Position numbers and translations under genes: made by a program. A stretch of DNA of 40,934 bases. Source: Pseudobutyrivibrio sp. (GTDB lineage Bacteria > Bacillota > Clostridia > Lachnospirales > Lachnospiraceae). Numbering within the stretch: the stretch's first letter is position 1; each line of letters opens with the position of its first letter. Below, piece after piece: positions 2,250-17,672 of this stretch. The notes below the pieces were generated by a model that saw only the letters and a program-made list of their open reading frames with translations, did no database searches and was not told the DNA's origin. The DNA lies in NCBI RefSeq assembly GCF_015057185.1, contig NZ_SVEV01000031.1, forward strand, positions 1-40,934, given 5' to 3'.

Positions 2250-3572
2250 TCACCTATTCTTGTTGATTGTACCATTTAAATGTGAAAAATTATTATACGA
2301 ATAGTATTTTTCTATTAAATAAAGCGAGCCGCAAATACAAAGCACCTCATCTTTTCGGACTAAATCTTTTATATTAGCCCCTTTTTCAAGTGCTACTGCA
2401 TCTATCCCATATTGGCGTATTTTATCCACTAACTCTTTTTGGGTCATAGTTCGTTTATTAGGAACCTCTTCCACATAGCAGCGCTTCGCAATAGGCATAA
2501 GCTTTTCTAATATTATATCTACCTCTTTATCCTTAAGGATTCCCATAAGAAAAACAATTTTTTGATTTGGAAAATATTGCTCTAAGGATTGTCTCAGCAC
2601 CTCAGCTCCTTGCCTGTTATGGCCACCATCCACAATTACATATGGATTTTCACCTGTAAGAGAAAATCTGCCAAACCATTTAGTACCCCTAATTCCCTCT
2701 GCTATGGCAGCATCAGAAATAGCATACCCTCTTTTTCTAAGCTGTTTTACAGCAAGAATAGCAAGAGCTGCATTATCCACCTGGTATGTTCCAAGTAGCG
2801 AGGTCTCATATTTTTCATCTAATTCAAACACTTGACCCTTAAGACTTCTACTTAAAACTTTTGGCTTTTGCCCATAAATTAAGTCCACCCCTATTCTCGC
2901 GGCAGCCTCTTCTAACACAGTGGAAACTTCTTTTTCCTGACTTGCAGAAACAACCACTGTGCCTGCCTTAATTATTCCTGCTTTTTCAGCAGCAATCTCT
3001 GCCAAGGTATTTCCCAATATAGACATGTGATCATAGCTTATAGGGGTAATTACTGTCACAATAGGTGCCGGTATAACATTGGTAGTATCAACTCTTCCGC
3101 CCATGCTCACTTCAAGAACAACCAAATCACATTTCATCTCCTTGAAATAAACAAAGCCCATCACAGTAAGAATTTCATATTCACTAGGGTAAATCCCTTT
3201 TGAAGCAAGCTCATCATAGGCAGGCTTCACCTCCGAGAAAATTTTTGCAAACTCATCATCTGATATTTCTTTACCATTCACAACAAACATCTCGTTATAT
3301 CGAAACAAAAAAGGCGAAGCAAATGTTCCCACTTTAATCCCTGCCTTATCCAATACAGATGAAATATATGCCACAGTAGAGCCCTTACCATTGGTTCCTG
3401 CCACATGAACATATTTCAAATCATTATGAGGGTTTCCTAATTTTTCCAAAAGAGCCTGCTCAGCATCTAGCGAAAACATATCCTTTAGAGGAACCCCTGT
3501 ATTTATCGGTGGTGCAAAATGAGGCAATTCCTCAAAAAAAGAAATTGCCTCTAAATAACTATATTTTTTCAT
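2250..3572 (-). CDS. folC: Bifunctional folylpolyglutamate synthase / dihydrofolate synthase
   Basis: FolC adds glutamate to dihydropteroate and to reduced folates, which traps folates inside the cell. The sequence shows the Mur-ligase type ATP loop HVAGTNGKGSTVAYISS, then ITPISYDHMSILG and AAEKAGIIK, and a C-terminal ligase domain (YVIVDGGHNRQGAEVL, VFLMGILKDKEVD). The 440 residues are normal for the family. The frame is open up to a TTG at 3590, but the ATG at 3572 has GAGAG upstream and begins MKKYSYLEAISFFEEL, as family members do. That start lies 14 bases inside the end of folT, a typical translational coupling. Transporter and trapping enzyme therefore share one message under the tetrahydrofolate riboswitch. 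Confidence 0.93.
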   Translation of the reverse strand: MKKYSYLEAISFFEELPHFAPPINTGVPLKDMFSLDAEQALLEKLGNPHNDLKYVHVAGTNGKGSTVAYISSVLDKAGIKVGTFASPFLFRYNEMFVVNGKEISDDEFAKIFSEVKPAYDELASKGIYPSEYEILTVMGFVYFKEMKCDLVVLEVSMGGRVDTTNVIPAPIVTVITPISYDHMSILGNTLAEIAAEKAGIIKAGTVVVSASQEKEVSTVLEEAAARIGVDLIYGQKPKVLSRSLKGQVFELDEKYETSLLGTYQVDNAALAILAVKQLRKRGYAISDAAIAEGIRGTKWFGRFSLTGENPYVIVDGGHNRQGAEVLRQSLEQYFPNQKIVFLMGILKDKEVDIILEKLMPIAKRCYVEEVPNKRTMTQKELVDKIRQYGIDAVALEKGANIKDLVRKDEVLCICGSLYLIEKYYSYNNFSHLNGTINKNR

Positions 3573-4074
3573 AAAGTCTAACTCTCTCAAAAGCCTTTAA
3601 CAATGTGTAGATCATAACAGTATTAACTACCAACATAATCAATTCTTTTGGTAGACGATACAAAATAGTATTCACATAGCCTAACTTAAGATAAAGCATA
3701 TTAAGCCAAATACTATTCAATAAAATGCCTACAACTACAGTATTAACGACCTGCGATACAACGATTCTCTGCAATGTAGGTCTGTGCTTATAGAGAATCA
3801 CTCCAAATATCACACCAGTCATCATACTACTGAATGTAAACCCAGGGAAAAATGGACCTGTAGGGTAAAGGAAAAATCCTCCTACATCCACAAGAATACC
3901 CATAATTCCTGCAATACCTGGTCCCAGCAACATACCTGCCACACACAATGGTATGAACGCAAATCGGATCTCAATAAATTGATTAATAGGCAACTTGAAA
4001 TATCCAAGTACTATTCCGATTGCTGTTAGCATGGCTGCAACTGTAAGTGTCTTTGTGTCTCGTAATTTATTCAT
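3559..4074 (-). CDS. folT: Folate ECF transporter S-component
   Basis: A 171-residue hydrophobic protein with about six membrane segments. It is expected to bind folate outside the cell and to work with the shared ECF module (EcfA, EcfA', EcfT), which is not in this window. It has the S-component features of a basic N-terminus, a first helix TVAAMLTAIGIVLGYFKL, then EIRFAFIPLCVAGMLLGPG, and short loops. Assignment to folate rests on three agreeing points: FolT-like sequence, a tetrahydrofolate riboswitch directly upstream, and a 14-base overlap with folC. The start ATG at 4074 lies 7 bases after AGGAGGTG, which is itself paired in a hairpin of the leader. Confidence 0.92.
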   Translation of the reverse strand: MNKLRDTKTLTVAAMLTAIGIVLGYFKLPINQFIEIRFAFIPLCVAGMLLGPGIAGIMGILVDVGGFFLYPTGPFFPGFTFSSMMTGVIFGVILYKHRPTLQRIVVSQVVNTVVVGILLNSIWLNMLYLKLGYVNTILYRLPKELIMLVVNTVMIYTLLKAFERVRLYEKI

Positions 4075-4080
4075 AAAAAT

Positions 4081-4120
4081 ACACCTCCTTTGCAGTCCCT
4101 ATTGCTTACAAAGAAGGTGT
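4081..4120 (-). promoter_or_regulatory. Hairpin covering the folT ribosome site (riboswitch expression platform)
   Basis: On the minus strand ACACCTTCTTTG (4109-4120) pairs with CAAAGGAGGTGT (4081-4092). This makes 12 base pairs with a single wobble. The second arm contains the whole folT ribosome site AGGAGGTG. There is no U-tract, so this looks like control of translation initiation rather than termination. That binding of folate stabilises the closed form is inferred from the family. Confidence 0.8.
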
Positions 4121-4142
4121 AATTATATATACATTTCCTATG

Positions 4143-4239
4143 TAGCAGCGGGATGCGACCATAAAACCGCGGCATAACCTTCGTCCTGATGACAACTCCC
4201 TGTTCACCAAGCACTTTACGCTTTACAGTCTACTCTGCA
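4143..4239 (-). promoter_or_regulatory. Tetrahydrofolate (THF) riboswitch aptamer
   Basis: Read on the minus strand, the leader carries the conserved THF-riboswitch blocks in order: AGAGTAGA, GCGTAAAGTGC, GGTGAACAGGGAGTTGTC, GGACGAAGG, CCGCGG and CGCATCCCGCTGC. GCAG and CTGC at the two ends close the P1 stem. Order and spacing match the known class found upstream of folT and folate genes in Firmicutes. It sits between the promoter (4256-4284) and the ribosome-site hairpin (4081-4120). Confidence 0.93.
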
Positions 4240-4255
4240 TTTCTAAATTTGCATC

Positions 4256-4284
4256 ATTATACATCATAGTAGCACCCATAACAA
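4256..4284 (-). promoter_or_regulatory. Sigma-A promoter of folT-folC
   Basis: On the minus strand TTGTTA (4279-4284) and TATAAT (4256-4261) are 17 bases apart. The expected transcription start, near 4249, lies about ten bases before the riboswitch. The -35 box and most of the spacer fall inside the outermost repeat of the large palindrome (4271-4283). Confidence 0.7.
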
Positions 4285-5011
4285 CCCCCATTTTATTCCT
4301 GCCTCCCCCCTCCTCTACTTTTACCCTTGCCCGCTCCATCTTCTCCCACTTGTTCCCTGCGCATCTAGCCCCTGCCCGCCGCCTGCCCCATCACCTCCAT
4401 GGAATACTTCGCAAGAATATTTTGTTTTCCAAATATGCAAGTGTCGCATCTTTATTAGCATGTGTCTTTCTCATGTCTGTACAATTTTGAAAAAGGTATT
4501 TTATGGGCGGACACCAGAAACTATATTTAGTGCAACTCAGGCTCAGGGGGAATTGGGCGATTTTGGAATGAACCTAGAAAAATAAAAGCTGAATTATCAA
4601 TATATTGGCATGCGTCGCTAGGACGGCGACGCAAGTGCGACACGCGACACGATGTCGTATAAAGCACGGTGCCAATATATGATAATCCAGCTTTGTAATT
4701 TTTCTTGGTGAATGTATTATGAGCCCAATTCCCCCTTGAGACCTGAGTTGTACCAATTGAGAATAACTAAAATGTCCGCCCAGCAAAAATACATTTTTCA
4801 AAATAGTTCATCCATAGAAAGACACATGCGGATGCTCCCTTTTGCATATTGGAAAACTACAATATTCGCGAAATTGTATTCCATGGAGGTGATGGGGCAG
4901 GCGGCGGGCAGGGGCTAGATGCGCAGTGGAAATTTTACATAGATGGGGCGGGCAAGGGTATTTCAAACATAAGGGCTGGAGGCAGAAAAAGAGCACCCTG
5001 TTATGGGTGCT
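4271..5011. repeat. 741-bp imperfect palindrome, no credible coding content
   Basis: Two arms of about 340 bases (4271-4610 and 4670-5011) are reverse complements in a series of matching blocks around a centre near 4640. Matching pairs are 4271-4283/4999-5011 (13 bp), 4299-4306/4978-4985, 4322-4334/4948-4960 (13 bp), 4336-4341/4941-4946, 4357-4405/4878-4926 (49 bp without mismatch), 4458-4471/4816-4829 (14 bp), 4504-4513/4773-4782, 4546-4558/4723-4735 (13 bp) and 4600-4610/4670-4680. Blocks between them differ more. The 49-bp block is far richer in GC than the neighbourhood. The open frames here are mirror images of each other and show no family resemblance. It may be a non-autonomous mobile element or the DNA of a very long structured RNA; I cannot tell which. 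Confidence 0.9.
4611..4669. other. Structured apex of the large palindrome
   Basis: The unpaired centre between the arms holds smaller hairpins of its own: GCGTCGC/GCGACGC (4612-4618 with 4626-4632) and CGACA/TGTCG around a CGA loop. GTGC and GCAC (starting at 4635 and 4664) enclose the second hairpin. The segment is rich in GC and CpG-like steps compared with the flanking DNA. Confidence 0.6.
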
Positions 5012-5013
5012 CT
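4986..5013 (-). terminator. Terminator of the phosphate transporter, overlapping its stop codon
   Basis: On the minus strand AAGAGCACCC and GGGTGCTCTT form a 10-bp stem with loop ATAACA followed by TTTTT. The stop codon TAA (5001-5003) lies in the loop. The first arm and loop also form the outermost block of the 741-bp palindrome. Confidence 0.9.
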
Positions 5014-6620
5014 TTGAGTGCGTATGCAATATTGATAGCGTGGTCGGCGCATCGCTCTAGGTCAGTGACCATATCGGAGAAGATGACACCTGCGATTGGT
5101 TCGCATTTATTTTCCATGAGTCTCTCAACGTGGTGATTGATGAGCTGTTTCTCTTGTTTGTCAACCTTGGACTCAAGCTTTTCGATTTTTGGAAGATTCT
5201 CGTAGTTTTCAGAGGTAAAGATGTCGATGGCAAGTTCAACCTCTTCCATTGAGTTTTCAGCCATTTCCTTAAGTTCCTTGGCTGCCTTTTTGGAAAGCTT
5301 AGTCTTTTTGTTTTTCATACGTGTTGCATATTCAATGATGTTTTCCGCATGATCTGAGATACGTTCTATATCAGTAACTGCAATTGTGATTGCAGATATT
5401 CTACGAAGATTCTCAGCAGATAAGTTCAATGTTTGGAGCTTTACCATTGCATCCTGAATTGCATGATTAAGGATGTTTACGGTTTCTTCACGCTCCTCTA
5501 CATCCTCGACCTTTTCAGGTGAGTAATCAAAGAAGCAGTCGATTGCCTTTTCGAAGTTTTCTGCTGCAATGGCACCCATTCTAGCTGCCTCAAGCTGAGC
5601 CTGATGAATAGCCATGTTTGGTGGTACATTGTTTACCTGAGTCATAAATACAAGCTGACGATCCTCTGCTGCTCTTGTCTCCTCTGGGAGCTCAGGAATG
5701 AATGTATATGTAAGCTTGATAATGTAATCTGTGATAGGGAAAATCAAGCATACTGCGATTATAGCAAAAATTGTATGTGTGTTAGCTATCTGACGTCCTG
5801 GATCAGTAGATGTAGACTGAATCCAATCTAATAGCGGTGTAACATTTATAATTATTACGATAAGTATTGCTCTCGTAATGTTAAATAGTAAGTTTAGAAT
5901 CGCTGAACGTTTACCATTTCTATTAGCTGTAAGTGCAGCCAAAAGGTTAGGTGTAACAGAACCGATGGCAGCACCAATTACCAAGTATACAGCAATGTCA
6001 TAATCAAGGATTCCCTGAACAACAAATGCCTGGAAGATAACTGTTGAAGATGATGACGACTGAAGTAATGCAGTAAATGCTATACCAAATAAAAGTGCTA
6101 AAAATGGATTACGTAAAGTTGTAAGGAAATTTACAAATACCTCTGATTTTGAAAGCGGTGCAATAGCAGCCTTCATAATGGTAATACCCTGAAAGAGCAT
6201 ACCAAATCCCATAACTACAGAACCAATATGCTTTACTAAATTGTTCTTCATGAACAAGTACATTACTGCACCAGCAAAAAGTAATAATGGTGTAAATGTA
6301 GCAATATTAAAAGCTGTAATCTGTGCTGTGATTGTAGTACCAATATTGGCACCAAGGATAACTCCAATAGCCTGAGCTAAGGTCATCATTCCGGAATTAA
6401 CGAAACCAATAACCATAACGTCAGTGGCTGATGAGCTCTGAACGAGAACCGTCATTGCGATTCCCACAAGAACAGCTACTAATTTGTTTGTAGTAGCCTT
6501 TTCTAAGATTATCTGAAGATTGTCACCGCAACTATTTTTAAGGCCTGTGGACATAATAGACATACCAAACAAGAATAAGCCCACTCCACCTAGCAGTGAT
6601 AAGAATTGTGCAATTGTCAT
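5001..6620 (-). CDS. Na+/phosphate cotransporter family protein with C-terminal PhoU-like domain
   Basis: A 539-residue membrane protein of the PNaS family, which couples phosphate uptake to sodium. The first 310 or so residues hold the two inverted Na/Pi repeats, each marked by a QSSS motif (VLVQSSSATDVMVIGFV and ALLQSSSSSTVIFQAFV). The C-terminal part (about 345-535) is an all-helical PhoU-like domain, in which such proteins are thought to sense or gate phosphate flux. Start MTIAQFLSLLGGVGLF follows AAGGAG at a normal distance. It is a single-gene unit with its own terminator overlapping the stop codon. The last three codons and the stop fall inside the terminal repeat of the large palindrome, so the palindrome may have supplied or copied the extreme 3' end. 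Confidence 0.9.
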   Translation of the reverse strand: MTIAQFLSLLGGVGLFLFGMSIMSTGLKNSCGDNLQIILEKATTNKLVAVLVGIAMTVLVQSSSATDVMVIGFVNSGMMTLAQAIGVILGANIGTTITAQITAFNIATFTPLLLFAGAVMYLFMKNNLVKHIGSVVMGFGMLFQGITIMKAAIAPLSKSEVFVNFLTTLRNPFLALLFGIAFTALLQSSSSSTVIFQAFVVQGILDYDIAVYLVIGAAIGSVTPNLLAALTANRNGKRSAILNLLFNITRAILIVIIINVTPLLDWIQSTSTDPGRQIANTHTIFAIIAVCLIFPITDYIIKLTYTFIPELPEETRAAEDRQLVFMTQVNNVPPNMAIHQAQLEAARMGAIAAENFEKAIDCFFDYSPEKVEDVEEREETVNILNHAIQDAMVKLQTLNLSAENLRRISAITIAVTDIERISDHAENIIEYATRMKNKKTKLSKKAAKELKEMAENSMEEVELAIDIFTSENYENLPKIEKLESKVDKQEKQLINHHVERLMENKCEPIAGVIFSDMVTDLERCADHAINIAYALKEHP

Positions 6621-17528: not shown

Positions 17529-17548
17529 ATTTACGAATTTAATAATTA

Positions 17549-17625
17549 GCTAGGGGCGCATTATTGCTGAGAGGTGTACACCGACCCTTATCACTTGAAC
17601 TGGATAATACCAGCGTAAGGAAGCA
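17549..17625 (+). promoter_or_regulatory. TPP riboswitch aptamer (THI element)
   Basis: The leader carries the hallmark blocks of the thiamin pyrophosphate riboswitch in order: AGGGGCGC, GCTGAGAGG, CCGACCCTT, ACTTGAACTGGATAATACC and AGCGTAAGGAAGC. It sits between the promoter and thiT, as expected for a thiamin transporter gene. Confidence 0.96.
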
Positions 17626-17633
17626 TTTGATAT

Positions 17634-17672
17634 GATCTCCTAGCATATATATGTATGAAGGGAGATTTTTTT
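17634..17672 (+). promoter_or_regulatory. Expression platform of the TPP riboswitch, covering the thiT ribosome site
   Basis: ATCTCCT (17635-17641) can pair with GGGAGAT (17660-17666), which is followed by a run of T up to 17671. The second arm is the thiT ribosome site. Alternatively CCTAGC (17639-17644) can pair with GCTAGG (17549-17554) at the 5' edge of the aptamer, freeing the ribosome site. The two pairings exclude each other. That TPP favours the closed form is inferred from the class. Confidence 0.65.

Follow-up and report, generated by a model that had tools for sequence, protein, structure and literature searches.

A dispersed non-coding palindrome of Pseudobutyrivibrio with the TwoAYGGAY motif at its tip: a probable MITE-like DNA element

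The large palindrome that lies between a presumed folT gene and a phosphate-transporter gene in the window (the whole stretch of 40,934 nucleotides of Pseudobutyrivibrio sp. that was analysed, to which all positions below refer unless a contig or locus is named) represents a non-coding repeat that occurs dispersed in Pseudobutyrivibrio. We consider it probable, at roughly three chances in four, that this repeat is a MITE-like, non-autonomous DNA element of the genus in which recombination between the arms flips the core and rewrites the arms, and which is maintained as DNA. A broader reading is advanced more tentatively, the doubt slightly outweighing the confidence: that TwoAYGGAY is the apex of mobile DNA palindromes found throughout the Lachnospiraceae rather than an RNA family, the Pseudobutyrivibrio members having self-rewriting arms and a switch-like core.

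Structure of the palindrome

The palindrome proper spans 4322-4960 (639 bp, arms and core; plus strand, as taken from its TwoAYGGAY tip). It is flanked by two genes on the minus strand, one (3559-4074; PF12822) for the S component of an ECF transporter, presumably FolT, and preceded by a THF riboswitch (4144-4239, minus strand), the other for a Na/Pi cotransporter, nptA (5001-6620; PF02690 and PF01895). A TPP riboswitch (67.1 bits) was also recorded elsewhere in the window, at 17542-17638 on the plus strand. The preliminary description had set the palindrome at 741 bp (4271-5011); an extra outer 13-bp inverted pair on the plus strand (4271-4283 and 4999-5011) does end at these positions, but it is separated from the main palindrome by a poorly paired stretch. 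Its right block takes in the stop codon of the cotransporter gene, and the pair probably stems from the flank and does not belong to the mobile unit. Two additional inverted pairs (I5 and I11) extend beyond the element.

The blocks follow each other in mirror order. Outermost are two outer stems, 4322-4341 and 4941-4960 (95% complementary), followed by a mostly unpaired stretch (4342-4356 on the left, 4927-4940 on the right) and then by the longest perfect pair, 51 nt at 100% (4357-4407/4876-4926), a real block that had earlier been measured at 49 bp. This pair holds the copy-specific inner arms, C-rich on the left (4357-4405) and G-rich on the right (4878-4926), the one being the full complement of the other. 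Further inwards lie 4415-4440/4842-4867, 4458-4471/4816-4829, 4473-4502/4786-4815, 4499-4513/4773-4787, 4527-4541/4742-4756 and 4545-4558/4723-4736. The conserved core (4406-4877) of this copy shares 76-96% identity with the other copies in the same genome, and its tip (4562-4719) matches the Rfam family RF01731, TwoAYGGAY (clan CL00106), with 54.5 bits against a gathering score of 43. Sequence and copy alignment place two hairpins in the tip, the first (4612-4632) with the loop TAGGACG, i.e. AYGGAY minus one base, and the second (4645-4657) with the loop CGA, from which GGA has been lost.

This arrangement is far beyond chance, and the mirror-ordered reverse-complement blocks first noticed by inspection were borne out by the block listing, the fold and the shuffle scores. 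The half-versus-half alignment of 4271-5011 scored 163, compared with a maximum of 20 among 200 dinucleotide shuffles and a best score of 25 elsewhere in the window (741-nt windows, 50-base steps), while the minimum free energy of 4285-4990 was -408.8 kcal/mol (20 shuffles: -194.2, sd 8.6), the reverse strand behaving likewise. The initial impression that the region holds no credible protein also stands, the longest four ORFs across the element being only 68-95 aa. A protein-coding remnant was rejected, given the lack of any ORF of interest and the frame-breaking tip indels among copies, and a match to MIR8562 (38.5 against a gathering score of 211) was put down to chance, as any long hairpin may fit such a model.

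Copies and distribution

Searching the window's genome (G000) with the core gave at least 24 forward matches, three of them running into contig ends, and at least eight contig-end pieces; overall, the genome carries at least 21 interior loci and at least 11 contig-end pieces, these counts being lower bounds for which 40 of 53 candidates were scored. Four pairs of contig ends could be joined by eye through their matching private arms, so that four assembly gaps can be paired. Contigs with ends inside the repeat are C5, C11, C16, C30, C32, C36, C44, C52, C53 and C55. One copy (L024; contig C40, about 1388-1506) is split by ~120 bp of serial short hairpins, apparently another small element.

RF01731 matches were found 23 times in the window's genome, in 27 of the 29 Pseudobutyrivibrio genomes (up to 49 per genome), in 39 of 250 sampled genomes of the family and in 26 of 344 sampled genomes of the order. 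A pattern scan returned Pseudobutyrivibrio (mostly MD2005, but also P. xylanivorans DSM 14809) and Agathobacter ruminis as carriers. The hairpin reaches mostly 300-450 nt from its centre in Pseudobutyrivibrio and about 100-150 nt in other genera, with exceptions on both sides. A phage or plasmid origin was rejected, the core having no blastn match in either collection. The suggestion that the palindrome consists of two inverted copies of one element finds no support, since the core of the window copy is no more than about 71% identical to its reverse complement and it is the whole unit that recurs.

Mobility of the element

Copies that kept their ends carry GTTRCHATTCAC at both of them, in 15 non-redundant pairs of GTTACYATTCAC-type ends; these include two from one locus in two species (L344/L357) and one from a different 187-bp unit (L304). 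Exact 8-bp flanking duplications accompany five of the 15 pairs (chance probability 2e-21 to 4e-18), and the two pairs of the shared locus show a 7/8 duplication. A sixth exact 8-bp duplication was seen by eye at L072, and a looser ATTCAC-like motif stands on both sides of 23 of the 70 copies of the genus outside the window's genome. The 187-bp unit (L304:1162-1348, in G013) has GTTACTATTCAC ends and a different interior, and is situated at one of the two loci, A and B, that were each read in 28 genomes (locus A).

At locus A, the same two genes are separated by 97-183 bp in 11 genomes without the element and by 588-867 bp in three that have it; the remainder comprises four wider gaps without a detected element, two partial matches without the right gene and eight genomes with neither. 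The gap at locus B is 246-390 bp without the element (12 genomes) as opposed to 1,040-1,068 bp with it (two genomes), the other cases being one filled site cut by a contig end, one with the right gene reversed and 12 without the right gene. Between distant species the filled copies differ in their arms and may represent separate insertions. Presence and absence were also seen at L366 and L364, G025 copies that were read against empty relatives. Of the three possibilities raised in the preliminary description, the dispersed copies, empty sites, terminal repeats and 8-bp duplications in relatives favour that of a palindromic non-autonomous mobile element.

The three end-defined G021 copies have longest ORFs of 47-57 aa, and so no transposase gene of their own. 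Neither 400 kb of G021 nor a separate set of 416 sequences yielded an autonomous IS or a transposase gene with such ends, and the 187-bp unit and the element may share one transposase. Outside Pseudobutyrivibrio, a 9-bp (L127) and a 7-bp (L098) flanking duplication among 39 copies only suggest mobility.

The empty syntenic sites come from other loci, and the window locus itself gave none. The cotransporter gene is present in all 29 genomes, its downstream neighbours varying in most species, and an element match near the 29 orthologues was found only in G000, G011 and G019, with neighbours that differ between species. In G016, the two genes that flank the window copy share a contig, about 2 kb apart with another gene between them; there was no element match at either neighbour locus of this genome, and the intervening gene means that it does not offer a clean empty site. 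The window copy has no recognisable GTTACYATTCAC ends and no target duplication; most plausibly, it inserted long ago and its ends have since decayed.

Private arms

Complete copies are built of the core, an inner stem of ~45 bp (its left side usually C-rich), an unpaired stretch and an outer stem. Within a copy, the two arms match closely over 45 nt in the window's genome (mean 94%, minimum 82%; 20 copies) and similarly in MD2005 (mean 90%, minimum 73%; 29 copies). Between copies with cores at least 95% identical, mean arm identity was 0.56 in the window's genome, barely above the 0.50 of shuffled arms (seven pairs), whereas the arms of MD2005 do resemble each other (0.73; 0.41 shuffled; 37 pairs); the arm identities were taken with free end gaps and range widely, and all are means except the within-copy minima. 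Cores of copies with unrelated arms are up to 97% identical. Composition also separates the two parts in the window's genome, C making up 48% of the arms and 19% of the core. In another genus, two copies of G447 (L127 and L140) have long purine-rich left arms that are unlike each other, and private arms may have evolved on more than one occasion.

In MD2005, four copies whose duplications are intact (L240, L255, L262 and L273) have arms that are recognisably alike by eye, which indicates that a new insertion brings its arms along and that these become different later. The same observation led us to reject pre-existing palindromes, serving as insertion targets, as the main source of the arms. 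It also weighs on the proposal that the palindrome grows outwards, template-switch copying of flanking DNA making the arms from the target: similar arms brought by four young copies would mean that the main arms are element-encoded, and the C-rich arm composition is unusual for such an origin. Outward growth would account for the outer 13-bp pair of the window, which holds the stop codon of the neighbouring gene, for L028 and L031, where by eye the stop codons of both neighbouring genes fall within or at the outer stem, and for the outermost repeat of L366, which shares sequence with the empty site in G005; this G005 sequence could, however, be an excision footprint, and G007 and G014 lack it. 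We regard outward growth as quite unlikely as the general source of the arms, and read the outer pairs that contain neighbouring stop codons as probable cases of occasional outward copying of the flank.

Counts of changed columns in seven related pairs gave 57 changed alike in both arms and 96 changed in one arm only, in alignments that include non-arm columns and leave out L052 and L053 versus L055, the arms of which end nearer the centre. These counts allow arm conversion but do not prove it.

Core inversion and proposed mechanism

Of 12 orthologous loci with both flanks colinear, five have the core turned round in one species and seven do not; the 12 remain after dropping L342/L370, which gave no core alignment, L013/L090, which has a single flank, and six pairs in which only one flank could be used. 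The clearest form of the event, identical flanks and arms around a reversed core of about 98% identity, is found at L346/L361 and L341/L350. At a further inverted locus, L342/L362, L362 lacks part of its right half. The arms differ at the remaining two inverted loci, L204/L230 and L009/L228/L054, and opposite independent insertions are therefore possible there. The core evidence at L219/L220 is weak (29 nt).

A PHI-type permutation test on paralogous cores gave p = 0.004 for 20 copies of the window's genome, p = 0.001 for 13 of these and p = 0.001 for 18 copies of G021. Core recombination of this kind fits the likeness of cores within a species despite their unlike arms, and recombination between arms would explain both private arms and inverted cores.

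On the MITE-like reading, an element that is quasi-palindromic over its whole length would insert between genes with an 8-bp target duplication, as seen in relatives, by means of a transposase presumably supplied in trans. The arms of one inserted copy would then recombine with each other and flip the core, as the two clear loci indicate; where the same recombination is resolved as conversion, changes would be copied across and both arms rewritten together. Each locus would in this way gain private, near-complementary arms, and its terminal repeats and duplication would decay. Gene conversion would meanwhile swap sequence between the cores of different copies, in agreement with the recombination test. 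The palindrome would be kept as DNA, an explanation that needs no RNA function.

Position relative to genes

The 21 complete copies lie between eight convergent, 12 co-directional and one divergent gene pairs (ORF-based), a preference for gene ends that would be expected of an intrinsic bidirectional terminator or a stabiliser of mRNA 3' ends; avoidance of promoters alone, however, predicts the same distribution. Some insertions adjoin an existing terminator made of a hairpin and a T-run (e.g. L364 and L292, by eye, G007 included), and a terminator scan of 4000-5300 gave a single site, outside the element, where 1.2 were expected. We hold a terminator or stabiliser role to be highly improbable. 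Among the 12 co-directional copies, orientation relative to the genes is seven one way and five the other, and it differs between species.

RNA or DNA

The account of TwoAYGGAY in 2010 called it 'probably' an RNA and probably not cis-regulatory, with representatives in human gut sequences, gamma-Proteobacteria and Clostridiales (PMC2864571), and a later passage proposed it as a CsrA-binding sRNA on the basis of its GGA loops (PMC4333381). Passages of three other papers deal with its structure and stability (PMC11701678; PMC7657543; PMC11661157). The tip therefore belongs to a described family, contrary to our earlier belief that there was none; for the full 600-760-bp unit that belief holds, in that no description of it was found among the titles, abstract openings and cited passages searched.

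Mismatches between the arms bear on whether the palindrome is maintained as RNA or as DNA. An RNA helix accepts G-U and not C-A, whereas a DNA palindrome treats both alike. The ratio of G-T to C-A mismatches in the arms was 27:27 in 20 copies of the window's genome (L024 and L042 being left out for low arm scores, the arms of L024 nevertheless being visible separately), 51:56 in 35 copies and 34:36 in MD2005, as against 153:1 in the control, the THF riboswitch of the same genus (29 sequences). In the tip hairpins it was 3:5 in other genera and 0:0 in Pseudobutyrivibrio. With mismatches that are strand-symmetric, unlike those of the control, no RNA-level constraint is seen; this argues against an RNA role without settling it, because recent arm conversion could hide selection on the RNA. 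The idea of a gene for a very long structured RNA is accordingly weakened by the symmetric mismatches and the unbiased orientation, but is still conceivable.

One form of an RNA function would be that TwoAYGGAY binds CsrA, a very long RNA hairpin presenting the GGA loops and the many copies acting as a CsrA sponge, as might be supposed from the loop motif on which the published proposal was based (PMC4333381). We detected csrA in 38 of 39 TwoAYGGAY carriers (E up to 0.001) and in 88 of 211 non-carriers among the 250 Lachnospiraceae genomes (csrA above cut-off; Fisher p = 4e-12, uncorrected for shared ancestry), an association that the published sponge idea would lead one to expect and that hints either at new support for the link between this RNA and CsrA or at a by-product of ancestry. 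G219 is the sole carrier without csrA above the cut-off, and the window's genome has its copy on contig C39 (60490-60645; 92.4 bits). Two or three csrA matches occur in the carriers G036, G089, G094, G112, G118 and G208. A strict pattern found two CAnGGAYG hairpins in 13 and a single one in 15 of 45 elements from other genera. In Pseudobutyrivibrio the GGA loops are eroded, and none of 25 elements has two such hairpins (17 have one, eight none). In the window's genome, L030 retains ATGGAC in both loops, but 19 of 20 aligned copies have loops of the TAGGA/CGA type. The stems in other genera total 63:55 G-T versus C-A mismatches and lean towards G-U in the segment 84-130 nt from the centre (44:24), with no G-U excess in other helices. 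Orientation relative to genes, unbiased and variable between species, also speaks against a sponge, and on balance we consider this function unlikely, although it fares better than a terminator role or outward growth of the arms.

Implications and comparison with known systems

The results make a concrete case for revisiting an Rfam family so far handled as a structured or regulatory RNA, and the test of strand symmetry, G-T versus C-A, could be used on other orphan 'RNA motifs'. They also offer a natural series of long bacterial palindromes of varied age, whose orthologous loci allow arm homogenisation, inversion and core conversion to be followed. Long perfect palindromes are usually considered unstable in bacteria, and the tolerance of this genus for them is a testable question.

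The window palindrome and RF01731 coincide in its central 158 nt, which pass the gathering score of the model. That model has 168 positions and is typed Cis-reg, whereas here it forms the apex of a mobile palindrome of 600-760 bp; moreover, the Pseudobutyrivibrio members have mostly lost the second AYGGAY loop, and their helices lack a G-U signature.

Correia is a bacterial MITE, and named elements of this kind in PMC10969869 include RUP and QMITE. The element resembles bacterial MITEs in being non-coding, dispersed and intergenic, with terminal inverted repeats, target duplications and presence/absence between relatives. It is unlike them in being quasi-palindromic throughout, with locus-specific arms, an invertible core and no partner IS in the sequence scanned. 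Eukaryotic foldback (FB-type) transposons have very long inverted repeats that make up most of the element. The Pseudobutyrivibrio element shares such long repeats, but its host is bacterial and unrelated arms are found on cores that are 95-97% identical.

A last parallel concerns palindromes as targets. IS110 elements target REP sequences, and QMITE2 is given as a target of IS1111 in PMC10969869. The palindrome L408 (contig C197 of G005) contains a 402-aa IS110-family transposase gene (L408:927-2135, minus strand; PF01548 and PF02371) at its second tip hairpin, which shows that IS110 elements can target the palindrome. L408 retains its exact 8-bp duplication; in contrast to the QMITE2 and REP cases, the IS110 gene here has the appearance of a passenger, since it is the surrounding palindrome that owns the terminal repeats and the duplication.
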